From contig JAHLLM010000018.1 of NCBI GenBank assembly GCA_020444175.1, positions 1-64,000 on the forward strand: a stretch of 64,000 bases of DNA. The letters are read 5' to 3'. A model generated the notes under the pieces. The model worked only from the letters and a program-made list of their open reading frames with translations. It had not been told where the DNA came from and ran no database searches. Below are positions 39,679 to 62,872 of this stretch, one piece after another. Every line of letters starts with the position of its first letter. The first letter of the stretch is position 1. The translations under genes were made by a program, and so were the position numbers. Origin of the DNA: Desulfobulbaceae bacterium. Its GTDB lineage: Bacteria > Desulfobacterota > Desulfobulbia > Desulfobulbales > SURF-16.

Positions 39679-40183
39679 GGTCAATCAGAGCGTAAAAAAA
39701 AATTTTTGTCAATTGCAGCGCGTAAAAACGCAAAACAAGGCTCTTAACAACTCCTTGTTATTTTGGTCAAACATTTTCTCTTTTATGTTTCCCGGTGCAA
39801 AATGCATTCATTGTGAAATCCCCATATCCCTTTTGATAAAAACCCATCTTTTTCAATGTGTTACACAGGGCTAGTTGTATCCAGGAAAATTAAAAAGAGT
39901 GAAAATAAAATCTTTGGTTTGGAATACGGCAAATTACCACGCCGTCTTGTGAAAAAAAATGTAACTATTCAGCTGCACCTCATCTCTGAAGAGATCCTCC
40001 TTTATTGGAGAGAAATGCAGCAAGCTTTCAATCAGTTTGCACAGATCGATACCGCATTCAAAATGTCACTTTGTAATACAAGGTTTTAATTGACTTTCTT
40101 GGTAAAAACTGCTGAAATCAAGTAACGATAATTATCCTTAACACATTAATGGATTATTACTTCTGAGAGATCTTCGTAAAAAA
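39679..40183. other. Intergenic region upstream of the response regulator
   Basis: No supported gene. A frame running from 39856 to 40089 has no ribosome-binding site and crosses a transposon-like end at 39961. Nothing else stands out. Confidence 0.5.
39961..39994. mobile_element. Solitary GTAACTATTCAG element end
   Basis: The sequence from GTAACTATTCAG through the following GCTGCACCTCATC is the same as the left end of the element at 28234. I could not find a convincing inverted partner or target duplication here. It may be a decayed copy. Confidence 0.5.
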
Positions 40184-41596
40184 ATGACGACAAAACAAGA
40201 TTATCCCATAATGCTTGTTGACGATGAGGTGGATATCCTCAATACATTTGAATTGCAGCTTAACTTTGGTGGTTATCACAATATCATACGTCAAGAGGAT
40301 AGCCGGGAAATCCTCCCTCTGCTGGCTGAGATTGAGGCGGATGTTATTCTCCTTGACCTTGCAATGCCCCATCTCAGCGGTCAGGAACTCCTGCCGCAGC
40401 TTACCGAACAGTATCCGGAAATTCCGGTAATCATTGTCACTGGACAGAGCAGGCTCGAAGTGGCCATTGACTGCATGAAAAACGGCGCTTTTGATTATCT
40501 TGTCAAGCCGGTTGAGAACATGCGTCTGGTTACAGCGGTACGACGGGCTGTGGAACTCAGGGATTTGTCCCGGGAAAATAAAGCTCTGAAGCAAAGAGTG
40601 CTGTCAAAAACCATTGAACATCCCCAGGCCTTTTCCTCCATTATTACCACAAATCCGGCAATGTTTTCCTGCTTCCAGTATATGGAAGCTGTGGCTCCCT
40701 CACCTGAACCTGTCCTTATCACTGGAGAAACAGGCGTCGGCAAGGAGCTCATTGCCAAGGCCATCCACGCGCTCAGCAACCGTCAGGGGCCCTTTGTGGC
40801 TGTCAATGTTGCAGGACTTGATGACACCCAGTTTGCCGACACGCTTTTTGGCCACAAAAAAGGCGCCTTTACCGGTGCTGACACCCAGCGCCGCGGCATG
40901 ATCAGCGAAGCCTCCGGTGGAACCCTGTTTCTTGACGAGATAGGCGACATGAGTCTTCCTTCTCAGATAAAGCTCCTGCGCCTTATCCAGGAAAAGGAAT
41001 ACCTGCCACTGGGTGCAGACGTGCCGCAGATGACCGATGCACGCATTCTGACGGCCACAAACTGTGATCTCAAGGAACTGGATGAATCAGGTAAATTCCG
41101 CCGCGATCTCTATTACAGGCTGAGAACCCACCATGTAAACGTGCCGCCTCTGCGCGAGCGACTGGACGACCTGCCCCTGCTGCTTGAGCATTTTCTTGAA
41201 AAGGCGGCGGAAAAACTGGACAAAAAGAAGCCTACCCCGCCCAGGGAGCTTATCGATCTGCTTTCCACCTATCACTTTCCCGGCAATGTTCGTGAACTTG
41301 AAGCAATGGTCATTGACGCCGTGAGCAAGCATCAATCCGGCACGCTGAGCATGCAGACTTTCAGGGAACAGCTTGTGGCGGCAACAGATCAAAAAAGTCA
41401 GCCGCAAACGGCGCAGGCGGCAAACCAACAGAATATTTTTTCCGGCCTTGACGTGTTGCCTTCATTAAAAGAAAATTCGTATCACTTAATCACGGAGGCC
41501 ATGAGACGTGCCAAAGGCAACCAGACCATTGCCGCCCAGCTGCTTGGCATATCGCAGCCGGCTCTGAGTAAACGCCTGAAAACAATGATGCCGTAA
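40184..41596 (+). CDS. NtrC-family sigma-54 response regulator
   Basis: A 470-residue activator with three domains. The receiver (residues 1-120) has the acidic pair at 13-14, the phosphoacceptor Asp58 and Lys108. The AAA+ domain has Walker A GETGVGKE (181-188), the sigma-54 contact loop GAFTGA (228-233) and FLDEIGDM. The C-terminal Fis-type helix-turn-helix ([21 protein letters not shown]) binds DNA. So phosphorylation would let it open sigma-54 promoters. No histidine kinase is next to it. It lies directly upstream of a sigma-54 promoter for a multiheme cytochrome with a palindromic element 38 bp after its own stop, so local control of that gene is likely. Confidence 0.92.
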
Positions 41597-41633: not shown

Positions 41634-41664
41634 ATAACCTTTGTTATTACATGACAAAGGTTAT
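41634..41664. promoter_or_regulatory. Palindromic upstream element, copy A (candidate sigma-54 enhancer)
   Basis: ATAACCTTTGT and ACAAAGGTTAT form a perfect 11-bp dyad around nine bases. The same sequence with small changes lies at 48784-48814 before cheW. A second shared block (CATAACTTA...CCCCTTCAT) follows at 41722-41746. The dyad starts 184 bp before the -24 GG of the promoter at 41816. Confidence 0.75.
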
Positions 41665-41815
41665 TTTCAGCCCTCTTTCCCTGTTCAGCAAAGGATTCCC
41701 GTGAATTTGCACACTTATATCCATAACTTATGGTATACCCCTTCATAGTGAGTCATTTTTTTATTTTTTTTCCATACCTTGCTGATATATTAAGATAATT
41801 TTAAAAAAATTTTCT

Positions 41816-41832
41816 TTGGCCCTTATCTTGCT
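41816..41832 (+). promoter_or_regulatory. Sigma-54 promoter before the multiheme cytochrome gene
   Basis: TTGGCCCTTATCTTGCT has GG and GC separated by exactly ten bases, and TTGC at -12, which fits the TGGCAC-N5-TTGC consensus with one change. Transcription would start near 41843, giving a long leader that includes the repeat at 42064-42170. Confidence 0.65.
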
Positions 41833-42063
41833 ATATTAAAAGACAAGTGACAAAGACGAGACACCGCGATAATTGGACATGTAGTTGCACAGGACCAAAA
41901 AGCAAATAAGAGAGCAAGGCCCTCTGACATAAAGGCCACTATCTTAGTTTTGCTCCCCCCTAATGAAGAATACAACGCCAAGCCAGAATAAAGCTGAAGA
42001 AGATCAAACAGGCCGCACCTGTGCAGAAACATGATTGTAAATAAAAGGTCCATACAAGTTTGA

Positions 42064-42170
42064 CGGTTTCGTAAAAAACCCTCAACCGCCGCCGACACAT
42101 ATGTAACTTGTTGATATTACGTCGGCGGATGGTCAGCTTCAGAGCTTTTTTGCGAGACCATCACGTTTCA
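42064..42170. repeat. Dispersed intergenic repeat, copy 2
   Basis: GACGGTTTCGTAAAAAA at the left and TTTTTTGCGAGACCATC at the right are imperfect inverted ends. The centre (CCGCCGCCGA, GTAACTTGTTGATATTA, GGCGGATGGTCAGCTTCAG) matches 11511-11608. It lies in the leader of the cytochrome gene. Confidence 0.75.
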
Positions 42171-42204
42171 TGAATCCTCAATAAATTGAGGAAAGGAGGT
42201 CGGG

Positions 42205-43329
42205 ATGAAAAAAATGCTGAATACAAAACAAGCTGCAAAAGCGATTGTGTTAGGGGTAGGAATTGCCGGAATGTTTATGCTTCCAACCGTGGCCTTAGGT
42301 GCTGCTGCTGGTCCTTGCGTTAACTGCCATACCATGCATAACAGTCAGGATGGAGGAAATGTCGTTGGCACAGACACTCCTAACGGAGCCTTGATCGCCA
42401 AGGCAAATGGCTGTGTCGGTTGCCACACCAGCACCAATAACACGGAAAACGTCCAGACCAATATCCCCATGGTTATGCATACTGGTGCACCCGCAGCCAC
42501 GGCCAATGGCGGAACGCTGGCTGGCGGATCCTTTTACTGGGTAAATGACAGCGGCGGCAATCTTGACTCTAAAGGTCATAATGTTGTTGGTATTGCCACT
42601 GCGGATGCGACTATCGGCCAGGTACCTCCGGGATGGAATGTCGCTTTTGATGCAAACGGTGTGGTTGGCCCCACCTGGGCAAGTAACCAATTGACCTGTG
42701 CCGGCACCTATGGCTGCCATGGTGACCATACTAAAGATAGTGATTTTTCAGCTGTCACCGGCTCACATCATGCTGATGACAGCACCATTGACGGCTCTAC
42801 AGTTGCCAAAAGCTATCGCTTCCTGCTCGGCATTAAAGGTATTGAAGATTCCGACTGGGAGGATACAGTAGCTGCTGGCGACCATAACCAGTACTATGCC
42901 GCCCATAGAGCAGAAGACACAGAAGCTACTGCCGACTCGGCATCCATCAACTATCTTTGTGCGGAATGCCATGGCGATTTCCATTCCGGAGCAGGCGATC
43001 TCGGTATTGATGCAGACGGTTCATTCGGTGCGGCCTGGTTGAGGCACCCCACGGATATTGATATGAATAATGCTTTGGTGACAGGCACGGAATACGCTTC
43101 ATACACAACGTATAATCCCCTGGCACCTGTGGGTAGCTCAAACGGGGCTTTGGTGGAAAATAATGTCACGACAGCAGGCAATGCTGTTGTGCTTTGCCTT
43201 TCCTGCCATCGTGCCCATGGGACGGAATATGCCGATTTACTCCGTTGGGATTATACCACCTGTAATGCCGGAACCAATGATGCGGCATGTGGCTGTTTTG
43301 TCTGCCATAGCACAAAAGATGCTGGATAA
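42205..43329 (+). CDS. Exported multiheme c-type cytochrome
   Basis: A 374-residue secreted protein with a signal peptide (residues 12-33, IVLGVGIAGMFMLPTVALGA). Five canonical CXXCH haem sites are at residues 38, 70, 252, 331 and 364. A sixth possible site, CAGTYGCH at 165-172, has five residues between the cysteines. The layout, with long Gly/Ala/Asp-rich loops between haems, is that of large extracellular or outer-surface cytochromes of Desulfobacterota that carry electrons to external acceptors or partner cells. AAAGGAGG precedes the ATG. A sigma-54 promoter and palindromic element lie upstream next to an NtrC-type regulator gene. Function is inferred from type only. Confidence 0.85.
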   Translation: MKKMLNTKQAAKAIVLGVGIAGMFMLPTVALGAAAGPCVNCHTMHNSQDGGNVVGTDTPNGALIAKANGCVGCHTSTNNTENVQTNIPMVMHTGAPAATANGGTLAGGSFYWVNDSGGNLDSKGHNVVGIATADATIGQVPPGWNVAFDANGVVGPTWASNQLTCAGTYGCHGDHTKDSDFSAVTGSHHADDSTIDGSTVAKSYRFLLGIKGIEDSDWEDTVAAGDHNQYYAAHRAEDTEATADSASINYLCAECHGDFHSGAGDLGIDADGSFGAAWLRHPTDIDMNNALVTGTEYASYTTYNPLAPVGSSNGALVENNVTTAGNAVVLCLSCHRAHGTEYADLLRWDYTTCNAGTNDAACGCFVCHSTKDAG

Positions 43330-43392
43330 GAGCAGTGCAGACGGACTCAGGGAATACTTGCAGTAATTGACAATCATTTTCATCCCGTGAAT

Positions 43393-43430
43393 TTATAGTG
43401 TCTATTTCGCTTGGCACATAGACACTATAA
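43393..43430. terminator. Perfect 13-bp hairpin downstream of the cytochrome gene
   Basis: TTATAGTGTCTAT (43393-43405) is inverted perfectly at 43418-43430. It lacks a T-run and may act as a 3' stabiliser or processing structure. Confidence 0.55.
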
Positions 43431-43431
43431 A

Positions 43432-43472
43432 CAGCGCCCCCTTCTGCACATTTTAAGCAGAAGGGGGCGCTG
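43432..43472 (+). terminator. Strong 16-bp GC-rich hairpin
   Basis: CAGCGCCCCCTTCTGC (43432-43447) pairs perfectly with 43457-43472 around nine bases. It follows the previous hairpin by one base and is the likely end of the cytochrome transcript. Confidence 0.7.
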
Positions 43473-43618
43473 ATGTTTAATGTTGAGAGCATTTGGCATG
43501 TCTTATTGAGACTCAATTAAAATTTTCTGCTGTTTGAACGGCACCAAGCAAGACGACCGGCTCGGTCTCGTGAAACACAAGAGACCTTCACGGGAATCTG
43601 ATATAAATTATCCCCAAC

Positions 43619-43659
43619 CCCAAAAGGCCATCATTTTTTTTAACTGATGGCCTTTTGGG
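43619..43659. terminator. Hairpin at the end of the NrfD operon
   Basis: CCCAAAAGGCCATCA pairs perfectly with TGATGGCCTTTTGGG. It lies 36 bp past the stop of the minus-strand NrfD gene and can serve as its terminator. Confidence 0.7.
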
Positions 43660-43695
43660 TGTTTGTAGAAATCGGCTTGCCGGCCTGCTCTCTCT

Positions 43696-44940
43696 TTATT
43701 TATAATCAAGAGAAGGGACAAACTTATTGATCACCCAAAAGAGTACAAAGGGTGTTGCACCCACGGTAAGCGCCCCGAAAATCCCTTCTTTAAAGCTTTC
43801 CATGCTGTGCGGTATAACCGGGATGTGGTAATGCATAAAACCAGAGAAAGAAAGCGAAAAGGCCTGACCGCCAATAACAACATTCCAACGCATCATGAAT
43901 ACACCGAATAAAATCAGTGCAAGAGCAACGGCAGCCCGTTTAATGGTCAGTCTCGGCAGCATCAGCAGGATAAAGGGCAACAGGTTTCCAAAGCCGTACT
44001 GAAGAATGAAAATGTTCACAAAATCATGTTCATACATGACCTCGCGTAGAATATCCCAGGATTTCATGGCAGTGTAGCCCCTGAATATCAAATCGAGGAG
44101 CTCCAGAGAAATTGCCGCAACCAGGAAACCCAGGAGATATTTTGATGTCTTCTTGATGACATCCATCTCAACCCCGCGAATTGTGGTTACCGAATCATCG
44201 CCCTTGCCTCTGGCCATAATAGCCCTGAATTTTTTCCATTCCATGATAATGATATATGTCAGCATACAGAGAGCAATACCTGATACAACCGCAGACATAA
44301 TAAAAATTACAGGCATGAGGGGCGACATCCAAAGGGCATTTGCTTTTACCGATCCAAAGATAAATCCGGCATAACCATGGAGAAAACAGGCAACGGGTAT
44401 ACCAATTCCCGCGAGGATCTTGACAGCTTTCTTGTCCTTTTTGATGGCTTCCTCACTCACGTCATTGGCGCCAAGGGAAAGGATGCGATACACAAAAAGT
44501 TTCATGCGGTTGCCCATGCCGTCCAGCCCCTGCAAAACGCCAATCTGCTCAATGAAATAAGCCCGGTAGACGAACCATATCTCACTCATAACAATCACGC
44601 CATATGTTGAAAAGACAATTCCAAAAGCAGCAATGGCAGAGGTAAAATGCGGTGTAAGCATGACATTTATACCCCGCATCGGCTGCTGCAGATGAAACAT
44701 CAACGGCATCATTGCCACCGGCAGTAACGCCAGAGAAAAGACCAGGGAAAACCTGGCCATGTCTTTAATATCATTCTGATTAAACACGTGATACAGAGAC
44801 GACAGAACAAAAGCACCGGCAACCAGACCTGTCATGTAAGGATACATGACAATCTGGATAGTCCAGTAAATAAACTCATTCGGATAGACAAAAAGGTGCT
44901 TTGCCGTCCACTCAACTCCATGTACAATTAAATCTTCCAT
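43696..44940 (-). CDS. NrfD-family membrane quinone-reactive subunit
   Basis: A 414-residue integral membrane protein with about ten hydrophobic helices, for example WTIQIVMYPYMTGLVAGAFVLSSLYHVF and PVIFIMSAVVSGIALCMLTYIIIMEW. The pattern is that of NrfD/PsrC-like subunits that exchange electrons and protons with the quinone pool. It is the last gene of a three-gene operon (cytochrome, 4Fe-4S protein, NrfD), 7 nt after the 4Fe-4S gene. The same three-part composition is found in Geobacter Cbc4 (CbcSTU) and, with an extra subunit, in Qrc. I infer a menaquinol-cytochrome oxidoreductase. Confidence 0.82.
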   Translation of the reverse strand: MEDLIVHGVEWTAKHLFVYPNEFIYWTIQIVMYPYMTGLVAGAFVLSSLYHVFNQNDIKDMARFSLVFSLALLPVAMMPLMFHLQQPMRGINVMLTPHFTSAIAAFGIVFSTYGVIVMSEIWFVYRAYFIEQIGVLQGLDGMGNRMKLFVYRILSLGANDVSEEAIKKDKKAVKILAGIGIPVACFLHGYAGFIFGSVKANALWMSPLMPVIFIMSAVVSGIALCMLTYIIIMEWKKFRAIMARGKGDDSVTTIRGVEMDVIKKTSKYLLGFLVAAISLELLDLIFRGYTAMKSWDILREVMYEHDFVNIFILQYGFGNLLPFILLMLPRLTIKRAAVALALILFGVFMMRWNVVIGGQAFSLSFSGFMHYHIPVIPHSMESFKEGIFGALTVGATPFVLFWVINKFVPSLDYK

Positions 44941-44947
44941 ATTTTGC

Positions 44948-45718
44948 CTACCTCACATTCGTATCAAGTCCGATGTAAAAAACCTGTGGTTTGGTTCCAA
45001 ATTCATCTTTCAGGATTGCCACCCGTTCGCTCATGACAATTTTTGTAACCGGGTCGTCAGGATCTTTTAAATTGCCTAACATACGCGCTCCAGCGGGACA
45101 GGCGTCCACGCAGGCGGTATTCATTCCTTTGCTTATCCGGTGGTAACAGAAGGTGCATTTCTCTGCCGTTTTGTGAATAGGGTGGAAAAAACGAACCCCA
45201 TACGGGCAGGCCATAATGCAGTACCCGCAGCCGATACACCAGGTTCTGTCGATAAGAACAACCCCGTCTTTTGTCTGGTAGGTCGCACCCACCGGACAGA
45301 CCTGAACGCAGGCGGGCTTTTCGCATTGATTGCAGAGCTTCGGCACAAAATACGCCTTGGCAACATCAGCAGCTTTAATTTCTTCATCCTCGATTTTACT
45401 CTCCGTAAAACCGTCACGGGCTGCATTGGGAGAGTCAATATGCGTCTTCCCATTTTTATCAACAACGTATCTCTCAACCCAGGTTCTGGAAACAGGGGTA
45501 TTGTACGGAACCTCGTTTTCTTTCTTGCAGGCTTTTACACAAAAGCCGCAACCAATGCATTTCGTTGTATCAACAACAAAACCCCACCTCACCCGGGAAT
45601 CACCGATAGCAGCTTTCACCTGGGCTGGACTTAAAAACTTAAATGCGCTCAGCGGCACTGAGGCAGCTATGGTCCCCAAAAAAGTTTTTTTCAATAAATC
45701 ACGACGAGTACAGCTCAT
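44948..45718 (-). CDS. Periplasmic 4Fe-4S ferredoxin subunit with Tat signal
   Basis: A 256-residue protein starting with a twin-arginine signal (TRRDLLKKTFLGTIAASVPLSAF), so it is exported folded with its clusters. Four cluster-binding Cys groups are visible: CIGCGFCVKACKKE, CNQCEKPACVQVCPVGA, CIGCGYCIMACPYGV and CTFC with CVDACPAGA. This matches the NrfC/CbcT/PsrB type that wires a NrfD subunit to a periplasmic cytochrome. Its ATG shares one base with the stop of the cytochrome gene (TAATG), so the two are coupled. Confidence 0.9.
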   Translation of the reverse strand: MSCTRRDLLKKTFLGTIAASVPLSAFKFLSPAQVKAAIGDSRVRWGFVVDTTKCIGCGFCVKACKKENEVPYNTPVSRTWVERYVVDKNGKTHIDSPNAARDGFTESKIEDEEIKAADVAKAYFVPKLCNQCEKPACVQVCPVGATYQTKDGVVLIDRTWCIGCGYCIMACPYGVRFFHPIHKTAEKCTFCYHRISKGMNTACVDACPAGARMLGNLKDPDDPVTKIVMSERVAILKDEFGTKPQVFYIGLDTNVR

Positions 45719-46185
45719 TACATTTCCTCCAGACTAGGGTTGTGCGGGTTGTGACATTCACGGCATTCTGAATCCGGATTATGCTCTTCAGGATCAATAG
45801 CTGGAATATCCCCCTGGCCGCGAGGAAATGAAAGATCAGCGTGGCACCTGAGACAGAGTGCCCGACTTCCATCTATGGTAAGGGCTTCAGGATCATCAGG
45901 GTGATTCAGGGCTGGACCGTGACAATTCTCACACTGGATAATCGCATGGGCGGAGTTCATGTTCTCCTCATACTTGTCCTCGTGACATTCCTGACAGTAC
46001 TCCTTGCCTCGGTACTTTACAGTTACGGCTTTCCAATCATCAATACTTCCAGCCCTGTGGAAGCCGTAGGTGAAATTTTTGCCGTTGACCCCAAAATCAT
46101 CAGGCACAACCGATTGCCTGAAGATGAGAAACAGGACAACAACACAGATGACCACTATGAGTGGCCGAAACACATGATTCCTCAT
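45718..46185 (-). CDS. Membrane-anchored tetraheme cytochrome c subunit
   Basis: A 155-residue protein with one N-terminal hydrophobic segment (PLIVVICVVVLFLIF) and four CXXCH haem sites: YCQECH, QCENCHGPALNHP, LCLRCH and ECRECHNPHNP. It has no lipobox, so the helix probably stays as an anchor in the inner membrane with the haems in the periplasm. It is the first gene of the cytochrome/4Fe-4S/NrfD operon and probably accepts electrons from, or hands them to, periplasmic cytochromes. Confidence 0.88.
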   Translation of the reverse strand: MRNHVFRPLIVVICVVVLFLIFRQSVVPDDFGVNGKNFTYGFHRAGSIDDWKAVTVKYRGKEYCQECHEDKYEENMNSAHAIIQCENCHGPALNHPDDPEALTIDGSRALCLRCHADLSFPRGQGDIPAIDPEEHNPDSECRECHNPHNPSLEEM

Positions 46186-46295
46186 ACCTCTCTCCTTTCA
46201 TCAACTGAATAAAACAAAAAACCAAAAGACTTCTTCAACTGAAAACAAAAACATGCTGATCCGGCAAAAAAAATCTCAAACCGGCCCTTCGCTCC

Positions 46296-46481
46296 TCACG
46301 TCGTCACAACATCCTGAAAACGCTCCATCGGGGGTCGATTTTTTTCATTTGCGCAAACCATCGCAATATTCTTTGCACCAAATATCTTTCCCGGACCAGA
46401 AACAGCCACATTTGATTTCGCTGTAAAAAAATGTGGTTTCCCTTGAGCCACTTTAACCCGGGCAAATATTTTTTTTGACAT
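46296..46481 (-). CDS. Possible small protein upstream of the NrfD operon
   Basis: A 61-residue frame starting MSKKIFARVKVAQGKPHFF with AGGAG directly before the ATG, closer than normal. It has a plausible amino-acid mix but no motif. It lies next to the palindromic promoter-operator repeat at 46474-46546, whose right-hand reading drives the opposite strand. I rate it as uncertain. Confidence 0.3.
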   Translation of the reverse strand: MSKKIFARVKVAQGKPHFFTAKSNVAVSGPGKIFGAKNIAMVCANEKNRPPMERFQDVVTT

Positions 46482-46546
46482 CTCCTACCACGCGGTGGTA
46501 TAGGTAGTTTTTTTGACACCTAATACCACGTGGTGGTATAGGTAGG
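46474..46546 (+). promoter_or_regulatory. Two tandem promoter-operator units with TACCAC-N3-GTGGTA
   Basis: Each unit reads T-run, TTGACA, a spacer of 18 bases holding a perfect dyad (TACCACGCGGTGGTA at 46486-46500 and TACCACGTGGTGGTA at 46524-46538), then TATAGGTAG. TTGACA and TATAGG are placed like -35 and -10 elements on the plus strand. An operator lying in the spacer is typical of MerR-like or repressor-controlled promoters. The first downstream gene is the membrane protein at 46750. Confidence 0.55.
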
Positions 46547-46681
46547 CAAGAATTTATTCGCTGTTGGAAGATTTTTTTTACAGGGCCTACAAAAATACAA
46601 GAAGTAACATGCCGCAATCATTGCTGTTATTATGGACAAATTTGGCTTCGCAAAAAAAATTCTTTACATTTTTGTCACCCG

Positions 46682-46698
46682 TCAACCAATTTGGTTGA
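46682..46698. promoter_or_regulatory. 17-bp perfect palindrome upstream of the membrane protein gene
   Basis: TCAACCAATTTGGTTGA is symmetric around its central base. It lies 52 bp before the start at 46750 and after the tandem promoters, a position suited to a repressor. Confidence 0.4.
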
Positions 46699-46749
46699 AA
46701 ACCGAAAAAGGCTTAGTCGCATAATTTATTACGCATGAAAGGAAACAAA

Positions 46750-48537
46750 ATGACAATGTCGAGCAATTCATTGGAAGAAATGAACAAGGATCTTGCCAAC
46801 AAGATTAATCTTCTTTTTGACACAGTTGGAAACCTTGATTCCCGGCTGAGTGTTATTGAAAAAAAATTAGAGGCACAGACAGTCAACCAGCCGACCCAAA
46901 AGTATATCCATACTCCTGATATGGAAATGCCCTCTTTGGAAATACTGGGCAAGGTGTCAAAAACTTCTTTTCTGCCAAAACTGTCCACAATCTGTTTCCT
47001 TCTTGTCTTCGCCCTTGCCCTCAGAACCCTGACTGACAGCGGGGCACTGAATCATACTACCGGGTCATTACTCGGGGTTGGCTATGCGGCTGCCCTTATT
47101 GTCATTGGCTGGAGACTGCTTGGCAAGTCAAGTAAAATAGCAGGAGTTTTTCCCATCAGCGGTGCCATGCTGATGTACACAATTGTCCTTGAAACCTACT
47201 TCCGGTTTGCCTCTTTTAGCGCATTGACTTCCTATATTGTCCTGTTTGTTACAATGATGAGCCTGGTTATCATTGGCAAACGTTTCGAAAAAAGTATTTT
47301 TCATGCGGTAGGGTTGCTTGGGGCATCCGTGGCGGCCCTGATGATCGATTTTCCCCACCCCATGTTTTACCAGCTTGCAATATTTATATATGCCGCCAAT
47401 ATCACAGCCTTTTATTTTTCAGAAGTGCCTCAAGCGAAATGGATACAGATTTCTTTGTATTCTCTGACAATCCTGTTCTGGTTCATATGGACCATCAAAA
47501 TCCACGGCCCCCTGGCAAAAGGTATGAATGTTGCCCCCGGCGTCTCCCCTGCCTGGTTTCTTCCTGTTACACTTCTTTTAGCCTTCACTTATATGAGATT
47601 TTCTTTTCAGAGCGCTTATACGAAGGGGGATGCTTTAGGCATATTTGAAATTGTTCTTCCCACCGTCAATGCCGCCTTAACCTACTTGGCCTGTTGGGCT
47701 GTCATTAATCCATGGTTTGGACATGCCCGTTTGGTTGGTTTTGCCGGTTTCTTATTAGCCTTTATTCATTATGTCGCCGCATGGGTCATCTTTAAATTCA
47801 GCCGACATGGAGGACCGGGGATATGCGCATTCACCTTTGCCGGCTCCACATTGCTGCTTGTTGCCAGTACATCTGCCATAGGAAATATTTTTATCGCGCT
47901 GCCGTTTTTAAGCGCAGTTGCTCTTGGACTATTAATGACATCCGATAACTGTGAAATAGGAGGAATTCGCCTTGCCTCGTATCTGATGCAGGCAATCTCC
48001 TGTGGAATGGCGATTGGTTATGGCGCTTTCTCCCCTGGCGAGGCGGCACCCGTATCAGCCTTTGTGGTTGCCGGCTCACTGGCGCTTATAAGCGGTTTTC
48101 ATTATTACTTAAGCCGCAAACGCCCCCTGTCCTGCCGCACTGGTTTTTTCGTTGAAGTTGATCCAGCAGACCGAACAGCTGTTTTCATACTTTTTGCAGC
48201 CCTCATAAACAGCTTTTGCATGCTGCAGATAGGTGGTTATTATATACTTGCCTCATTTACAGACAGCCTTCAAAACGCGCTTATGGGATTGCAATCGGTT
48301 CTCATTAACATCGGGGCAATTGTGCTCATGATCCTTGGTTTAAAGGGAAAACATCGGGAAATACTCTATACCTCCCTGGCAGTCGGCGTTATGGGTGCAC
48401 TCAAGGTTTTTGGTTTTGACCTTTTTAAGGCGAACGGGATACCGCTTGTGACAAGTGTCTTTTCATTCGGCGCTGTGGCGGCTGTGGGCTCAATTGTTCT
48501 GGGACGCTGGAACCAGATCCAGAAAAAAGCAACCTGA
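46750..48537 (+). CDS. Polytopic membrane protein (DUF2339-like)
   Basis: A 595-residue protein. Residues 1-45 are a coiled coil (EEMNKDLANKINLLFDTVGNLDSRLSVIEKKLE), and the remainder is a run of about 18 hydrophobic helices with little loop between them. This architecture, a short N-terminal coiled coil followed by many helices, resembles DUF2339-type proteins of unknown function; no transporter motif is visible. AAGGA six bases before the ATG supports 46750. Two tandem promoter-operator units and a further palindrome lie upstream, so it is probably tightly regulated. Confidence 0.7.
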   Translation: MTMSSNSLEEMNKDLANKINLLFDTVGNLDSRLSVIEKKLEAQTVNQPTQKYIHTPDMEMPSLEILGKVSKTSFLPKLSTICFLLVFALALRTLTDSGALNHTTGSLLGVGYAAALIVIGWRLLGKSSKIAGVFPISGAMLMYTIVLETYFRFASFSALTSYIVLFVTMMSLVIIGKRFEKSIFHAVGLLGASVAALMIDFPHPMFYQLAIFIYAANITAFYFSEVPQAKWIQISLYSLTILFWFIWTIKIHGPLAKGMNVAPGVSPAWFLPVTLLLAFTYMRFSFQSAYTKGDALGIFEIVLPTVNAALTYLACWAVINPWFGHARLVGFAGFLLAFIHYVAAWVIFKFSRHGGPGICAFTFAGSTLLLVASTSAIGNIFIALPFLSAVALGLLMTSDNCEIGGIRLASYLMQAISCGMAIGYGAFSPGEAAPVSAFVVAGSLALISGFHYYLSRKRPLSCRTGFFVEVDPADRTAVFILFAALINSFCMLQIGGYYILASFTDSLQNALMGLQSVLINIGAIVLMILGLKGKHREILYTSLAVGVMGALKVFGFDLFKANGIPLVTSVFSFGAVAAVGSIVLGRWNQIQKKAT

Positions 48538-48783
48538 AAACTCGGCCGGAAACGAATATGCCGTTTTTCTAACGGATGAGCCTCGGCTTACAGCCGAAAA
48601 GATTATCTCCCTGAATGAGAAAGACGAGCACTTTGAAGGCTTCTAATAAATTTTCCCATTTAAAATACCGGGCAAAATGCAGATTGCTGCTTCATCATGG
48701 TGTACGTTTTTTGTTTGTTCAAAGGCTTGCGCCATGATTGACCGTTCCTGTGCAGCGAGCCGCCTAACTTTTTATTCCCACCC

Positions 48784-48814
48784 ATAACCTTTGTTATTGC
48801 ATGACAAAAATTAT
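48784..48814. promoter_or_regulatory. Palindromic upstream element, copy B (candidate sigma-54 enhancer)
   Basis: ATAACCTTTGT-N9-ACAAAAATTAT is the counterpart of the element at 41634. The following block CATAACTTACCTCATGCCCC at 48870 is also shared. The dyad starts 183 bp before the -24 GG at 48967. Confidence 0.75.
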
Positions 48815-48965
48815 TTCGGCCTTTTTCCCTTTTCACAACAGGGCCTGCCAGGATACAGGGTCTCCATCCCATAACTTACCTCATGCCCCTTCATGTTCTA
48901 CGAATCTCCCATTTTCAAAGCATAACCTGTTGATAATAAAGACGATCAGCACACACACCCCAGTG

Positions 48966-48981
48966 TGGCACCCATTTTGCT
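48966..48981 (+). promoter_or_regulatory. Sigma-54 promoter of cheW and the chemoreceptor gene
   Basis: TGGCACCCATTTTGCT is a near-perfect -24/-12 element (TGGCAC-N5-TTGC, GG and GC ten bases apart). The start point would be near 48992, about 85 nt before cheW. No gene is seen elsewhere in 48538-49076. Confidence 0.85.
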
Positions 48982-49076: not shown

Positions 49077-49616
49077 ATGACACAACCCATCAAATCCATG
49101 AGTCAGGCGCCACTAACAGTAACTTCCAATGATGGCAATAGATATCTTACCTTTGCGCTTGGCAGTGAAGAATACGGCGTCAGCATTTTAAAAGTAAAAG
49201 AAATTATCGGCATGGTGCCGATTACCGCCATGCCGCACACGCCGGATTTCGTCAAAGGTGTGATCAGACTGCGCGGCAAGAGCTGTCCAATCCTTGACCT
49301 TCGCAAAAAATTCGGTATGGCAGATGCGGCATACACTGACCTGACCTGCATCGTCATGGTGGAAATAGCCGGCCGTCATCAAACTCTATTAACGGGCATA
49401 ATAGTTGATTCCGTCTCAGAAGTAATAAATATCAAAAATGAAAATATAGAGGCAATACAAGGTTTTGGTGCCGATCTTAATATGGAATTTATCCTGGGGA
49501 TTGCCAAAATGGAAGGCATGGTCAGAATTCTGCTCAATATTGATCGCACCCTGAACGCCACGGAAATAGCAATGCTTAATCGCCATACGCCCTATGACAT
49601 CATGGGCCTGAATTAA
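49077..49616 (+). CDS. cheW: CheW chemotaxis coupling protein
   Basis: CheW links chemoreceptors to the kinase CheA. The 179-residue protein has the double SH3-like fold with YLTFALGSEEYGVSILKVKEIIGMVPIT, FVKGVIRLRGKSCPILDLRKKFGM and GIIVDSVSEVINI. GGGAG precedes the ATG. The chemoreceptor gene follows after 64 nt in the same direction. cheA, cheY and other chemotaxis genes are not in the window. Control by sigma-54 is supported by the promoter at 48966. Confidence 0.93.
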   Translation: MTQPIKSMSQAPLTVTSNDGNRYLTFALGSEEYGVSILKVKEIIGMVPITAMPHTPDFVKGVIRLRGKSCPILDLRKKFGMADAAYTDLTCIVMVEIAGRHQTLLTGIIVDSVSEVINIKNENIEAIQGFGADLNMEFILGIAKMEGMVRILLNIDRTLNATEIAMLNRHTPYDIMGLN

Positions 49617-49680
49617 CACTCTGAATTAAAAAAGTTCTATACGTCCGGCATATTAATCTTGATTGGAGGAGGGAGGGAAG

Positions 49681-51324
49681 ATGAAAAATATGACATTGGG
49701 GAAAAAACTCATAAGCATTATCTCAATGTTGATTGTTATGATGCTTATTTCCACCTGGTTCGGTATTGCCAAGATGCGCTCCATTGGCGAGGAAATTGAG
49801 GGTATTGCTGAACACGATATTCCTCTGACCGAAACGATCGTCAGTATCAATGAAAATCAACTGGAACAATCAATCTGGCTTGAACGTGCCCTGCGCTTCG
49901 GCGGCGTGCAGGCAGACCAGGAAAAGGCACAAGAGGGCCTGCATCATTCGGAGTCTAAATTCGGAGAGCACTCTCATAAGGTCGATGCCCTGCTCAAAGA
50001 GGCGGAAGAGCTTATCGAGCATGTTATTGCGGATAACCACAGCGCAGGAGAAGTAGCCGAGTTTCAACATCTTTCAAGCCTCATACTCAACATTGAGACA
50101 CGGCATGCCAATTTTGAGCACCATGTAGAACAGGTATTTACCCTTGTCAACCAGGGCAAAATACATGAAGCCGAGCAGATGTCCGTGAAAGTGGAGGCCG
50201 AGGAAGATAAGCTTAATGCAGAGCTCGGGGCCTTTCTGAAAGAGGTTGAAAATTTCACCAGTGCAGCCACGGTAAGCGCCGAACATCATGAGCAGACAGC
50301 CCTGAAAGGCATGATTATCCTTGCTTCGCTGAGCATGGTTGTCGGTCTTACCCTTGGTATAATCATGACCTTGAATCTCACCGGCTCCATCAGACGCATC
50401 ATTGAAGGCCTGAGTTGCGGCGCTGAGCAGGTCTCTGTCGCTTCCGGGCAGGTCGCCTCCACAAGTCAGTCCCTTGCCGGTGGTGCCTCTCAGCAGGCGG
50501 CAAGCCTGGAGGAGACATCAACCTCCATTGAAGAGATGGTTTCCATGATCAAACAAAATGCCGACAATGCCGGACAGGCGAACAGTCTAATGAAGAGCAC
50601 CAACGACATGATCAACCTGGCCAATGAATCCATGGAGAAGATGACCCTGTCCATGCAGGAAATTTCCACGGCCAGCGAGGAAACATCCAAAATCATCAAG
50701 ACCATTGACGAGATAGCCTTTCAGACCAATCTGCTGGCCCTGAATGCGGCTGTGGAAGCAGCCAGAGCCGGAGAGGCAGGAGCAGGGTTTGCCGTGGTGG
50801 CTGATGAGGTACGAAATCTGGCCCTGCGTGCCACAGAGGCCGCCAAAAGCACAGCAACTCTCATAGAGGGCACAGTGGTGAAGGTCAGGGACGGTGCAGA
50901 ACTTGTCTCAAGCACCAACGAGGCCTTCAGAAAAGGAGCTGAAAGTTCCTTGAAGGTGGCGACCCTGGTCAATGAGATCGCAGCCGCATCCAATGAACAG
51001 TCACAGGGTATTGAGCAGATCAACAAGGCCGTGGTTGAGATGGACATGGTAACCCAACAGAATACGGCGGCAGCCGAAGAATCCGCCTCGGCCTCAGAGG
51101 AGCTCAGTGCCCAGGCAGATGAGATGCTCGGTATTGTTGCAGAATTGAACAAGCTGATCAGCTCCAAGCAAATTGGAGCAATCGACGCACGGAGCAATTT
51201 CCTTGCAATGGAATACAAAGGCGGCAGCACATCAAGCAGGGGAATCCTCAGTGCTGTTAAAAGCAGAATTCCGCTCCCGGAAAAAGTAATCCCCATGGCC
51301 GAGGCGGAGTTTGAAAACTTCTAA
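49681..51324 (+). CDS. Methyl-accepting chemotaxis protein
   Basis: A 547-residue chemoreceptor. TM1 is at about residues 9-29, a helical periplasmic sensor of about 170 residues follows (four-helix-bundle type, rich in His and Glu, for example [14 protein letters not shown] and [16 protein letters not shown]), and TM2 is [22 protein letters not shown]. The HAMP region after TM2 is short, and the cytoplasmic signalling domain has the hairpin tip [23 protein letters not shown]. The sensor ligand is unknown. GGAGGGAGGG upstream is a very strong ribosome-binding site; the long frame to 49663 would need a TTG. A terminator follows at 51359. Confidence 0.93.
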
Positions 51325-56495: not shown

Positions 56496-59492
56496 TCAAG
56501 AACATGTACCAGTCTTGTTACTCCATGAACAGCCGGCATCACGACATGATGTCTTGTCTGTAAAATCACTGCACGATGCGGAACAGGCAGGATCACTGAC
56601 ACAATCACCATCTGCGCAGTCGACATAGGTATCACCGTCGTCATCAATACCATTGACGCAGTTTTCCACCAGACATGCTGTGGCGCCTGCACAGTCAGGA
56701 TCGTCACAGTCGATCAGGCCGTTGTCGTTATTGTCGATGCCGTCATTGCAGATCTCATTCAGGCAGCCGGGATTATCTGCGCAATCCGGGTCGTCGCAGT
56801 CAACGAGACCGTCGCCGTCGTTATCTACCAAGTCGGCACAGAGTTCAGGATTAGGCAGACAGACCGGGTCATTGAAACACTCGGTATCGGAGCAATCAAT
56901 GGCTCCGTCACCATCGTTATCAGTACCATCTGAACAATCCTCAAAAATACAGGCAGGAGTCTGGGCGCATCCCGGATCCTCACAGTCGATGAGGCCGTCG
57001 CCGTTATTGTCAATGCCGTCTGTACAGTCTTCCGTGGTACAGGAAGGGGCATCCACACAATCAGGATCGGCACAGTCAACCAGGCCGTCATGGTCGTTGT
57101 CCAGGAAGTCACTGCATTGTTCCGGCATCGGCTGGCAGTTGATATCGTTGAAGCAGTCATTGTCATTACAGTCAATGGCGCCGTCAAGGTCATTGTCCAG
57201 GCCGTCAATACAGTTCATTTCAGGATTACAGTAGGCCACGGCGTCGCAGTCATCATCAACACAGTCCGTCATGCCGTCCTGGTCGTTATCAACACCATCG
57301 TTGCAGATCTCGCCGGTACAGGCCAGTGCACCAACGCAATCCGGGTCATCACAATCTACCAGGCTGTCACCGTCGTTGTCATTGCCATCACCGCAGACCT
57401 CGGAAGAACCGAGACAGAGAGGCAGGTTGTTACAGTCCGGATCAGCACAGTCGATCATCAGGTCTCCGTCATTGTCAAGCAGGTCATCACAAACAAGCTC
57501 AGGGTTGCAGGCCTGGGCATCAACGCAATCCGGATCATCGCAGTCTATGAGGGTGTCCTCGTCATTATCAACACCGTCACTACAGAATTCCGTGTTACAG
57601 CTTGGAGCGTCTACACAGTCTGTATCGTTACAGTCAATGAGGCCGTCAAGATCGTTGTCCAGCTCATCAGAGCAGATTTCACCGCCGCGACACTGGACAA
57701 ACGTCCGGCAATCCGGATCCATACAGTCGATGAGGCCGTCAGAATCGTCATCTATGGTATTGACGCAGTTCTCATCAGGGAAGGTACAGTCAATGTAATC
57801 CGAGCAGTCCGGATCTTCACAGTCGGTATAGCCGTCACCATCGTTATCCCAGCCATCCATACAGTATGTTTCAGGACACCAGGCGCCGTAACAGTCGGTA
57901 TCCGCGCAATCGATAAAAAGATCGCCGTCATTGTCAATACCGTCGGCACAGAGCTCGATCTGGTCGGTCACGGCCGGATCCTCATACTCGATGAGCAGGG
58001 TGGCGTTGTAAATAACCGTCGGCTTGTACTCGCCCTTGACAAACAGGGCCAGGTCAAGATCCTGGGTAAGGGGCATGCCCTCTACCCAGGAGATGCCGTC
58101 CGGCACCGTATCCGTCGGATCATAGGGGTTGAGGTCATTATAGGTTGCCCAGTTCTCACTCCAGGCCAACGGAGACTCGCCATCTGCCCAGTCGAGCAGG
58201 CTGACACGGGTGGTGGTCAAGGCGCCTGCCGGATATTTAATATCGTATTTATAAATCGGCGGTTCGGTGCAATTGACAATGGGGATATCAACGGCCGGAA
58301 TGTTCTGGCCGAATTTACCCGAACGGAGCCTGTAGCGCGGCCCTTTGCCGCTCACCGGATCATCCTCAAAAGGATCGCGGTCTGTTGTTGTATACCAGGC
58401 GTTGGTGGTGCCGCTGGCAAGATCAGAGGACCAGCCGCCGCTGTCAACCTGGCCGTCACCATCACTGTCAGCAGGCGGGTCGGCAAGGGCAGGATCCTTG
58501 AAAAGGGTTCCTGCCGGGATAAAATGACCGTCCCCCTCATAACAGTCCTTATCTGAAGTAAGCACGCCAAGGGTGTCTATAAAACCAGGCAGACGGCCGG
58601 TCGCACCCTCATTTTCAAAATCCTCAGGACGGATCTGGTCATTGGGGCTGTTGGTGATCTTATGGTTGATGATTAACTCCGCCCTGGTGACATGATAGTT
58701 GGCGCCCGGCACTTTCCAGTCGTTTGGTGTCGGAAAGGTGGTATAGAGGCGAACCTCGCTGGGACGCTTATGGATTGTTCCCCAGCGGAAGAGCAACTTG
58801 CCGTCATCTTTCTTGGTTATGGAGTAGTCCCGGCCGCTGACGATATTGACCAGATCCGATTCATTGGTCTGCAGGTCAAATGGGTTGGCCGGAGTGCTCG
58901 GGTCACTGGGAAAATACACTTCGTCGGACAGAGGTTGACAGATGCTTTCCCAGGAAGGGTCTGTGTAGAAATAGGGAATTTTCTCCGTGCAGGTCAGGAC
59001 ATGTTCCATGACCGAGTACTTCTCGGCTGAACATTTTGTTTTTGATCCTCCGAGACCGGCGCAGACACTGCCCCGGACAGTACCGGTTTTAAAGTACGGT
59101 GTCTGCGGATTGGCTACCACAACACCGATCTGATTATTATTGGCATTGACATAATCACCGATCCAGCCGTCATCATAGATACCGTCCCGTGTCTTGCGTT
59201 CGGCGCCGACAAAATCTGTGGTCCAGAAGGCAAACTCGGTATCAATGGGATACAGGGTTATACCGGTGAATATATCAACCTTGGGCTGCTCGCCGTTACA
59301 GGTGTCGCTCTCACAGATAATCGAGGGATCAGCAACATAACCTGTCCCGTCAAATTGCCCCAGGAGATCGTTCTTTGAAAAGGTGTGCTGCGGTGACTGG
59401 TATTGCACAACAGCCGCATCAGCAATTCCTGTACAGGCAAAGGCGCCCAATAATGCTGCGCAGACAACGCTGCTTTTTATACGCCACTTCAT
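56496..59492 (-). CDS. Cys/Asp-repeat (MopE-like) exported protein B
   Basis: A 998-residue protein with a signal peptide ([22 protein letters not shown]), an N-terminal domain of about 500 residues and then 15 repeats of the type C-x-D-G-x-DND-x-D-x-x-x-DC-x-D-x-DC. Most repeats have a GxDNDxDGxxDCxDPDC core. It ends with [20 protein letters not shown], a small Cys module absent from A and C. The mature part matches protein C with no difference seen over about 800 residues, which implies very recent sequence exchange. Metal binding and a surface location are inference. The ATG at 59492 has GAGGAGGA upstream, and a sigma-54 promoter lies at 59573. Confidence 0.8.
56955..59372. repeat. 2.4-kb direct repeat, copy within protein B
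   Basis: This stretch matches 60335-62752 at a constant offset of 3380 bp with no difference noticed by eye. Just outside both ends the two loci differ at many positions while staying homologous. Confidence 0.85.
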
Positions 59493-59947: not shown

Positions 59948-62872
59948 TTACCTGCAGGCCTTGTCTCTGGCGCAATCGGGATCAGAACAATCAGTCAATC
60001 CGTCACCATCGTTGTCAAATCCGTCACGGCATAACTTTTTCTCCGAGGGTGCGCACCCCCTGGCATCAGCACAGTCTGGATCAGCACAATCAATGAGGCT
60101 ATTGCCGTTATTGTCGATGCCGTCGTTACAGATCTCATTCAGGCAACCTGGATTATCCGCGCAATCCGGGTCGTCGCAGTCAACGAATCCATCGCCGTCG
60201 TTATCAACAAGGTCGGCACAGAGTTCAGGATCAGGCAGACAGACCGGATCATTGTAACATCCGGTATCTGAGCAGTCGATTGCACCGTCACCGTCATTGT
60301 CAATGCCGTCGTCGCAGATCTCAGGAGTGCAGGTAGGAGTCTGGGCGCATCCCGGATCCTCACAGTCGATGAGGCCGTCGCCGTTATTGTCAATGCCGTC
60401 TGTACAGTCTTCCGTGGTACAGGAAGGGGCATCCACACAATCAGGATCGGCACAGTCAACCAGGCCGTCATGGTCGTTGTCCAGGAAGTCACTGCATTGT
60501 TCCGGCATCGGCTGGCAGTTGATATCGTTGAAGCAGTCATTGTCATTACAGTCAATGGCGCCGTCAAGGTCATTGTCCAGGCCGTCAATACAGTTCATTT
60601 CAGGATTACAGTAGGCCACGGCGTCGCAGTCATCATCAACACAGTCCGTCATGCCGTCCTGGTCGTTATCAACACCATCGTTGCAGATCTCGCCGGTACA
60701 GGCCAGTGCACCAACGCAATCCGGGTCATCACAATCTACCAGGCTGTCACCGTCGTTGTCATTGCCATCACCGCAGACCTCGGAAGAACCGAGACAGAGA
60801 GGCAGGTTGTTACAGTCCGGATCAGCACAGTCGATCATCAGGTCTCCGTCATTGTCAAGCAGGTCATCACAAACAAGCTCAGGGTTGCAGGCCTGGGCAT
60901 CAACGCAATCCGGATCATCGCAGTCTATGAGGGTGTCCTCGTCATTATCAACACCGTCACTACAGAATTCCGTGTTACAGCTTGGAGCGTCTACACAGTC
61001 TGTATCGTTACAGTCAATGAGGCCGTCAAGATCGTTGTCCAGCTCATCAGAGCAGATTTCACCGCCGCGACACTGGACAAACGTCCGGCAATCCGGATCC
61101 ATACAGTCGATGAGGCCGTCAGAATCGTCATCTATGGTATTGACGCAGTTCTCATCAGGGAAGGTACAGTCAATGTAATCCGAGCAGTCCGGATCTTCAC
61201 AGTCGGTATAGCCGTCACCATCGTTATCCCAGCCATCCATACAGTATGTTTCAGGACACCAGGCGCCGTAACAGTCGGTATCCGCGCAATCGATAAAAAG
61301 ATCGCCGTCATTGTCAATACCGTCGGCACAGAGCTCGATCTGGTCGGTCACGGCCGGATCCTCATACTCGATGAGCAGGGTGGCGTTGTAAATAACCGTC
61401 GGCTTGTACTCGCCCTTGACAAACAGGGCCAGGTCAAGATCCTGGGTAAGGGGCATGCCCTCTACCCAGGAGATGCCGTCCGGCACCGTATCCGTCGGAT
61501 CATAGGGGTTGAGGTCATTATAGGTTGCCCAGTTCTCACTCCAGGCCAACGGAGACTCGCCATCTGCCCAGTCGAGCAGGCTGACACGGGTGGTGGTCAA
61601 GGCGCCTGCCGGATATTTAATATCGTATTTATAAATCGGCGGTTCGGTGCAATTGACAATGGGGATATCAACGGCCGGAATGTTCTGGCCGAATTTACCC
61701 GAACGGAGCCTGTAGCGCGGCCCTTTGCCGCTCACCGGATCATCCTCAAAAGGATCGCGGTCTGTTGTTGTATACCAGGCGTTGGTGGTGCCGCTGGCAA
61801 GATCAGAGGACCAGCCGCCGCTGTCAACCTGGCCGTCACCATCACTGTCAGCAGGCGGGTCGGCAAGGGCAGGATCCTTGAAAAGGGTTCCTGCCGGGAT
61901 AAAATGACCGTCCCCCTCATAACAGTCCTTATCTGAAGTAAGCACGCCAAGGGTGTCTATAAAACCAGGCAGACGGCCGGTCGCACCCTCATTTTCAAAA
62001 TCCTCAGGACGGATCTGGTCATTGGGGCTGTTGGTGATCTTATGGTTGATGATTAACTCCGCCCTGGTGACATGATAGTTGGCGCCCGGCACTTTCCAGT
62101 CGTTTGGTGTCGGAAAGGTGGTATAGAGGCGAACCTCGCTGGGACGCTTATGGATTGTTCCCCAGCGGAAGAGCAACTTGCCGTCATCTTTCTTGGTTAT
62201 GGAGTAGTCCCGGCCGCTGACGATATTGACCAGATCCGATTCATTGGTCTGCAGGTCAAATGGGTTGGCCGGAGTGCTCGGGTCACTGGGAAAATACACT
62301 TCGTCGGACAGAGGTTGACAGATGCTTTCCCAGGAAGGGTCTGTGTAGAAATAGGGAATTTTCTCCGTGCAGGTCAGGACATGTTCCATGACCGAGTACT
62401 TCTCGGCTGAACATTTTGTTTTTGATCCTCCGAGACCGGCGCAGACACTGCCCCGGACAGTACCGGTTTTAAAGTACGGTGTCTGCGGATTGGCTACCAC
62501 AACACCGATCTGATTATTATTGGCATTGACATAATCACCGATCCAGCCGTCATCATAGATACCGTCCCGTGTCTTGCGTTCGGCGCCGACAAAATCTGTG
62601 GTCCAGAAGGCAAACTCGGTATCAATGGGATACAGGGTTATACCGGTGAATATATCAACCTTGGGCTGCTCGCCGTTACAGGTGTCGCTCTCACAGATAA
62701 TCGAGGGATCAGCAACATAACCTGTCCCGTCAAATTGCCCCAGGAGATCGTTTTTTGAAAAGGTGTGCTGCGGTGACTGGTATTGCACAACAACCGCATC
62801 AGCGGACCCTGTACAGGCAAAGGCACCTAATATTGCTATGCAGACTACGCTGCTATATATACCCCACTTCAC
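59948..62872 (-). CDS. Cys/Asp-repeat (MopE-like) exported protein C
   Basis: A 974-residue protein with a signal peptide ([21 protein letters not shown]), the same N-terminal domain as protein B and 15 Cys/Asp repeats, the last ending in DPDCARDKACR like the end of protein A. It begins with GTG, preceded by AAGGAGGA; B begins with ATG at the same place. Only the signal peptide and the last four repeats differ from B. The repeats would form disulfide-linked, probably calcium-binding units. It is the first of three tandem genes of this type on the minus strand, each with its own promoter. Confidence 0.8.
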   Translation of the reverse strand: MKWGIYSSVVCIAILGAFACTGSADAVVVQYQSPQHTFSKNDLLGQFDGTGYVADPSIICESDTCNGEQPKVDIFTGITLYPIDTEFAFWTTDFVGAERKTRDGIYDDGWIGDYVNANNNQIGVVVANPQTPYFKTGTVRGSVCAGLGGSKTKCSAEKYSVMEHVLTCTEKIPYFYTDPSWESICQPLSDEVYFPSDPSTPANPFDLQTNESDLVNIVSGRDYSITKKDDGKLLFRWGTIHKRPSEVRLYTTFPTPNDWKVPGANYHVTRAELIINHKITNSPNDQIRPEDFENEGATGRLPGFIDTLGVLTSDKDCYEGDGHFIPAGTLFKDPALADPPADSDGDGQVDSGGWSSDLASGTTNAWYTTTDRDPFEDDPVSGKGPRYRLRSGKFGQNIPAVDIPIVNCTEPPIYKYDIKYPAGALTTTRVSLLDWADGESPLAWSENWATYNDLNPYDPTDTVPDGISWVEGMPLTQDLDLALFVKGEYKPTVIYNATLLIEYEDPAVTDQIELCADGIDNDGDLFIDCADTDCYGAWCPETYCMDGWDNDGDGYTDCEDPDCSDYIDCTFPDENCVNTIDDDSDGLIDCMDPDCRTFVQCRGGEICSDELDNDLDGLIDCNDTDCVDAPSCNTEFCSDGVDNDEDTLIDCDDPDCVDAQACNPELVCDDLLDNDGDLMIDCADPDCNNLPLCLGSSEVCGDGNDNDGDSLVDCDDPDCVGALACTGEICNDGVDNDQDGMTDCVDDDCDAVAYCNPEMNCIDGLDNDLDGAIDCNDNDCFNDINCQPMPEQCSDFLDNDHDGLVDCADPDCVDAPSCTTEDCTDGIDNNGDGLIDCEDPGCAQTPTCTPEICDDGIDNDGDGAIDCSDTGCYNDPVCLPDPELCADLVDNDGDGFVDCDDPDCADNPGCLNEICNDGIDNNGNSLIDCADPDCADARGCAPSEKKLCRDGFDNDGDGLTDCSDPDCARDKACR
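60335..62752. repeat. 2.4-kb direct repeat, copy within protein C
   Basis: This is the partner of 56955-59372 at an offset of 3380 bp. The first base differing at the high end is 62753 (T here, C at 59373). Confidence 0.85.

Follow-up and report, generated by a model that had tools for sequence, protein, structure and literature searches.

A putative sigma-54 enhancer module shared by multiheme cytochrome, chemotaxis and PilZ promoters in a Desulfobulbaceae bacterium

The genome of a Desulfobulbaceae bacterium holds a gene for a multiheme c-type cytochrome and, at some distance on the same contig, the chemotaxis gene cheW. The question raised by this locus is whether the two genes obey one and the same sigma-54 activator, and whether this activator is the NtrC-type response regulator encoded directly before the first of them. 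The window analysed here is a stretch of 64,000 nucleotides (assembly GCA_020444175.1, contig JAHLLM010000018.1, positions 1 to 64,000). A preliminary description of the window had reported a palindrome, a second block and a -24/-12 element at equal spacing upstream of both genes, and had proposed from this geometry a single regulon joining extracellular electron transfer and chemotaxis.

In order to define the shared element, we located each of its parts in both regions. Upstream of the cytochrome gene, the palindrome ATAACCTTTGT-N9-ACAAAGGTTAT was found at 41634-41664 with perfect 11-bp arms, 37 bases past the end of the regulator ORF at 41596. Its counterpart before cheW lies at 48784-48814, and there the right arm is degenerate. 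The 31-bp palindrome is composed of two 14-bp dyads placed back to back, which we termed putative enhancer dyads A1 (ATAACCTTTGTTAT, 41634..41647, plus strand, with the exact core ATAACNTWTGTTAT) and A2 (the inverted copy ATGACAAAGGTTAT, 41651..41664, minus strand). As an inverted repeat, A1 and A2 form 14-nt arms that are 93% complementary and stand 3 nt apart; the putative A1/A2 pair of the cheW promoter covers 48784..48814 (plus strand). The second block occupies 41721-41746 and 48869-48894, with 21 of 26 positions identical. It contains a putative dyad B with a tail, ATAACTTATGGTAT-ACCCCTTCA (41723..41745, plus strand), 94 bp before TGGC in the cytochrome promoter, and ATAACTTACCTCAT-GCCCCTTCA (48871..48893, plus strand), 95 bp before TGGC in the cheW promoter. 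In the pilZ promoter described below, the arms of block B are perfectly symmetric, GTATAAC-TTAT-GTTATAC; hence B is a third dyad of the same kind as A, followed by the tail ACCCCTTCA.

The -24/-12 elements, TGGC-N7-TTGC, begin at 41817 (TGGCCCTTATCTTGC, 41817..41831, plus strand) and 48966 (TGGCACCCATTTTGC, 48966..48980, plus strand), and the first G of their GG lies 184 and 183 bp from the start of the palindrome, as had been noticed before. Two details had to be corrected. The motif given earlier, TGGCAC-N5-TTGC, is exact for cheW only, the cytochrome promoter having TGGCCC. Furthermore, the rest of the two regions had been called unlike, which holds for most of the DNA, near random in the alignment, but not for two further common blocks, TTTCCNNNTNC..AAAGG at +42 to +64 and a TGATA/IHF-like block at about +140. 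The former corresponds to the middle conserved block TTTCC...AAAGG of the four-promoter alignment (41675..41701, plus strand). The latter includes an IHF-like site in the cytochrome promoter, TACCTTGCTGATA (41775..41787, plus strand), which agrees with 7 of 9 consensus positions and whose position is conserved in the alignment, and the sequence TAACCTGTTGATA in the cheW promoter (48923..48935, plus strand), which agrees with all 9 positions of YAANNNNTTGATW.

We then asked how often this arrangement occurs in the 5.42-Mb genome. When up to three mismatches were allowed, the palindrome pattern matched four places, and its reversed control none; the second-block pattern, searched independently over the whole genome, matched the same four places, again with no match for its control. 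A profile of the first 117 positions scored these four promoters at 92-102 bits and revealed a fifth, at C68:488-598 (37.6 bits, E 8.5e-9), which precedes a PilZ gene and has a TGGC-N7-TTGC of its own. The next best score in the whole genome was 16 bits, and a 211-position profile that includes the -24/-12 element recovered the same five promoters genome-wide and no sixth member. A search of the kind suggested in the preliminary description, for the palindrome with a -24/-12 element downstream, thus ended at five promoters. Nor do palindromes stand at random positions lacking such elements, since all five genomic copies of the exact 14-bp core ATAACNTWTGTTAT are found within these promoters. 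The 13 one-mismatch copies of the core elsewhere in the genome were dismissed as regulon sites, none having a -24/-12 element within 260 bp downstream.

Counting both strands, we found 15 matches to TGGC-N7-TTGC in 205 kb of the genome (3.7e-5 per strand position), yet the motif lies within one base of +182/183 in all four promoters that match the palindrome pattern. Relative to TGGC, A starts at -182/-183 and B at -94/-95; the pilZ promoter is 14 bp shorter than the other four, with A at -168 and B at -80. GG and GC are 10 bp apart in all five. Between B and -24, the IHF-like match is 9/9 in the cheW promoter and 7/9 in three others at the same aligned place, and the best match in the pilZ promoter is 8/9 at a different place. 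The occurrence of the module exceeds chance, and the fixed spacings and unique dyads strengthen the proposed geometry of a sigma-54 enhancer. That five promoters carry the module likewise favours a single regulon. No match to Rfam was found in the window.

Of the genes behind the five promoters, two encode multiheme cytochromes that are paralogues; the others are cheW (followed by an mcp gene), a gene for a CZB-domain methyl-accepting chemotaxis protein (MCP), and pilZ. The window cytochrome (42205..43329, plus strand) is a protein of 374 aa from the doubled-CXXCH family with 5 CXXCH motifs, or 7 if CX2-5CH is counted. We found no sequence-related solved structure for it, and a scan of genome contigs returned one distant metagenome relative with 41% identity. 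CheW (49077..49616, plus strand; Pfam CheW) is followed after 46 bp by an MCP gene (49663..51324, plus strand; Pfam MCPsignal and TarH), and the two genes probably share one transcript. Beyond the window, the targets on contig C39 are the CZB-domain MCP and the second doubled-CXXCH cytochrome. The gene of the latter is followed by genes for an NHL/PKD-repeat protein, for a TPR protein and for a giant cytochrome (L006:3362-8500), which is at least 1713 aa long and has 12 CXXCH motifs in the part read. The target on contig C68 is the PilZ protein. The cytochrome and chemotaxis themes therefore recur at sites outside the window, and PilZ is added to them.

Several other features of the window lie near these genes. 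Between the two promoters, on the minus strand (43696-46185), are encoded an NrfD-like membrane protein, a four-cluster Fe-S protein and a tetraheme cytochrome, and no copy of the element was found before this set. At 46467-46542 a tandem pair of 38-bp units, each with the palindrome ACCACGCGGTGGT, stands upstream of the gene for a 600-aa membrane protein (46735-48537) that has no Pfam match; the pair resembles a separate operator. Further on, two large adjacent minus-strand ORFs of 998 and 974 aa (56496-59492 and 59948-62872) are possibly tandem paralogues, as the lengths of their antisense ORFs match (488 and 175 aa in both); the 998-aa ORF has no Pfam match.

The proposed activator (40184..41596, plus strand; Pfam Response_reg, Sigma54_activat and HTH_8) is, according to its translation, an NtrC-type sigma-54 response regulator, with a receiver, an AAA+ domain bearing GAFTGA and Walker motifs, and a Fis-type helix-turn-helix. 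It could not be given a named functional type (NtrC, AtoC, ZraR or NorR), its NCBIfam scores falling far below every equivalog cut-off among the 25 models listed; the NtrC model, for instance, gave 345 against a cut-off of 558.6.

In order to see whether this regulator and the element belong together, we turned to its close homologues, which occur across the order with 53-59% identity. In genus g35 (family f4), the stop codon of the regulator relative is followed after 116-155 bp by a sigma-54 promoter. Among the 13 genomes whose sequence extends past the gene, 12 have a GCAA-N6-TTGC dyad, mostly followed by ACCC, 94 bp (once 93) before the TGGC of this promoter. When 258 genomes from across the order were searched for the GCAA dyad at the 94-bp spacing, 12 matches with no more than one mismatch were obtained, every one of them directly 3' of the regulator gene, and one of these, from family f15, has the tail ACCCCTTCA. 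The regulator-linked promoters of G069 (f15) and G092 (f4) contain a further dyad at -178/-180; in block B of G092 the tail is kept and the dyad is degenerate. Four matches with two mismatches, in g35 and g68, precede a gene for a cytochrome of the octaheme tetrathionate-reductase family, an assignment made on one of the four genes (TIGR04315, 609 bits; PDB 1SP3, E 6e-174). All four of these promoters contain another dyad, located at -167 to -179. With dyads there and at -94 and a sigma-54 promoter, the octaheme loci L212, L214, L207 and L216 make up a predicted regulon in g35 and g68. Operons for rhodanese-domain proteins stand behind the module in these other families as well.

The letters of the operator differ between the two groups. 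The half-site is GCAA in the relatives and ATAAC here, in step with a change of the recognition helix, which reads ITRQALNWRLK in the relatives and is a different 11-residue sequence in the window regulator. The link is accordingly drawn from the length of the dyad, the tail, the spacing and the position. No credible ATAAC-type palindrome was found outside this genome in 96 related genomes, a search in which this form was also absent from relatives of the same family; the 117-position profile gave no credible ATAAC-type site elsewhere in 258 genomes, the best score being 21 bits at a place where no -24/-12 element was seen. In the regulator tree, the ITRQALNWRLK clade does not include the window regulator, which branches outside it with a long branch, so we regard the latter as a close homologue and not as a proven orthologue. 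Nevertheless, a module of the same type lies directly 3' of its closest relatives in two other families, which links regulator and element far more strongly than adjacency does and supports the role that had been assigned to it. Taken together, these findings make it very likely that the five promoters form one sigma-54 regulon, with the window regulator, and probably also its copy described below, binding the dyads.

As for its purpose, the regulon may exist as described and yet serve redox reactions of periplasmic sulfur compounds or of other soluble acceptors, and not extracellular electron transfer. We give this reading a substantial chance, a little short of even, as the module elsewhere precedes the octaheme tetrathionate-reductase-family cytochrome and rhodanese-domain operons. 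Against it, the C39 set, with its NHL/PKD-repeat protein and giant cytochrome, appears more like a cell-surface apparatus.

A second question is whether another activator binds the dyads of this one regulon, the adjacent regulator being there by coincidence. The genome encodes 49 sigma-54 activators, so that it is only mildly improbable for one of them to adjoin one of five sites, and adjacency by itself is weak evidence for the link. Moreover, homologues with a more usual recognition helix are encoded at C77 and C12. None of the 49 lies on C39 or C68, and C79 encodes none besides the window regulator and its copy. We consider a different activator improbable, because, in two other families, an element of the same type with the 94-bp spacing and the tail stands beside the nearest relatives of the window regulator, and because the GCAA-carrying regulators have their best matches in the genome in that regulator and its copy (54-58%, the next 44-50%).

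The copy lies outside the window at C79:84334-85743 (L042:4334-5747). It differs from the window regulator by 30 nucleotides, 27 of them within the first 178 bases, which encode the front part of the receiver; the following 1198 bases are identical, and 3 differences come at the end. This pattern is most simply explained by an older duplication followed by gene conversion, which kept one output domain and two receiver surfaces; the identical stretch could also be an assembly error. No enhancer was found beside the second copy, which is flanked by dispersed repeats. These belong to a family whose members are 80-98% alike (window 28234-28440 and 39955-39990; L042:4033-4239 and 5763-5926), and they adjoin both regulator copies and are present elsewhere on the contig too.

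Since the regulator gene has been copied, and its second copy has such repeats on its flanks, the likeness of the promoters might itself be due to recent copying, by segmental duplication or a mobile element, the more so as the targets include two paralogous cytochromes. However, identity is limited to short blocks at fixed spacing. The alignment showed that the DNA separating the blocks has diverged to near random, and this argues that selection, not recent copying, holds the blocks. In addition, the genes behind the cheW, mcp and pilZ promoters are unrelated, and a like module recurs in other families. We rejected an origin by duplication on the grounds of this block-wise conservation, and regard it as very improbable. 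We also rejected, as hardly credible, the idea that the palindrome is the terminator of the regulator gene and its likeness at cheW incidental: it does lie 37 bp past the stop codon with TTTT behind it, but it is AT-rich and recurs in intergenic DNA upstream of other genes, where the downstream blocks, among them block B, and a -24/-12 element again follow it.

Returning to the regulon under the window regulator, we propose the following mechanism, as judged from the sequence. Dimers of the regulator would bind the 14-bp dyads ATAAC-N4-GTTAT, two of them back to back at about -182 from TGGC and one at -94, and the second copy (C79:84334) would probably bind the same dyads. IHF-like bending between B and the promoter may then bring the AAA+ ring of the oligomer to sigma-54 RNA polymerase at -24/-12, and the polymerase would open the promoter only with the regulator phosphorylated. 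The predicted starts, some 12 bp after the GC as expected of such promoters, are at about 41843 for the cytochrome and about 48992 for cheW. The output would be joint expression of the two multiheme cytochromes, one of which heads the set with the NHL/PKD-repeat protein and the giant cytochrome, together with CheW and its MCP, the CZB-type MCP and the PilZ protein.

From its predicted start, the cytochrome leader would have an unusual length of about 360 nt, which speaks against the proposed mechanism, as do the shorter pilZ promoter and the lack of an enhancer beside the second regulator copy. Within the leader, at window 42059-42142, lies a repeat of about 85 bp with an inverted repeat (GCCGCCGAC...GTCGGCGG), of which the contig has two further copies with 81-84% identity (L042:3830-3914 and 15688-15770).

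As for the sensor, no histidine kinase gene was found beside either copy of the regulator. A kinase gene with no regulator gene beside it lies on C68, divergent from the pilZ promoter, and its product is perhaps the sensor. The closest homologues of this kinase in the genome are those at C77 (57%) and C27 (48%), the next reaching 36%, and the C77 and C27 kinase loci both hold homologues of the window regulator. The kinases that adjoin closer relatives of the window regulator, in turn, are of another subtype, 26-28% identical to the C68 kinase, and the regulator tree gave no clean support for a C68-C79 pair of kinase and regulator. We therefore put forward the pairing tentatively, with the balance leaning against it. 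The C77 locus (L044:101-7750) encodes a periplasmic binding protein, two kinases, a CheW-like protein and the homologue of the window regulator, and a third kinase follows on the opposite strand.

It is also conceivable, though we hold it to be doubtful, that an ancestral circuit was rewired in this lineage: helix and half-site would have changed together, the kinase would have been lost from the side of the regulator, the regulator duplicated, and chemoreceptors, CheW and PilZ gained by the regulon. The ancestral circuit would have consisted of this regulator subfamily and a two-position dyad enhancer before multiheme cytochrome and rhodanese genes. As the duplicated regulator has an identical output half and a diverged receiver, two signals may feed one output. 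Whatever its history, the window helix with ATAAC and ITRQALNWRLK with GCAA form a natural pair of regulator/operator variants at conserved spacing, informative on how enhancer-binding proteins read DNA. The compact regulon of five promoters ties the production of multiheme cytochromes to chemoreceptors and a PilZ protein, and so the idea that apparatus for electron transfer and for searching or attachment is built together becomes testable through one regulator.

In comparison with known systems, the circuit most resembles NorR-norVW and NtrC-glnA, which likewise have several upstream dyads, an AAA+ activator with GAFTGA, and a -24/-12 promoter. For NorR, three enhancer sites are required on which the oligomer is scaffolded (PMC2941729), and their number equals that of the dyads found here; a role for IHF between enhancer and promoter is common (PMC7962754). 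In contrast to the NorR and NtrC enhancers, the dyad sequence here is another one, two sites lie back to back with one about 88 bp off, and the regulon comprises several operons; the input of NorR is a GAF domain, whereas that of the present regulator is of the two-component type. In Geobacter sulfurreducens, the RpoN regulon, with the consensus TTGGCACGGTTTTTGCT (PMC2725144), reaches cytochrome, flagellar and chemotaxis genes (PMC2725144, PMC2577667), and sigma-54 controls che/mcp genes (PMC2577667). In the searched parts of these two reports we found no such enhancer element, and the link they describe is a common sigma factor, whereas in the present genome five promoters share one small enhancer element and, on our reading, a single activator. 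The sigma-54 regulome of Desulfovibrio vulgaris was reconstructed activator by activator and includes DVU3142, which regulates electron transport genes, among them those of an octaheme cytochrome complex (PMC4641369). The targets reported there differ from those found here. Octaheme tetrathionate reductase (TIGR04315, PDB 1SP3) represents the family of the gene behind the module in g35 and g68; the cytochromes of the present genome are doubled-CXXCH proteins and fall outside that family. Our literature search found no described regulon with this element. In summary, this kind of circuit is known; the proposed regulon itself is new, and its limits are unusually clear.
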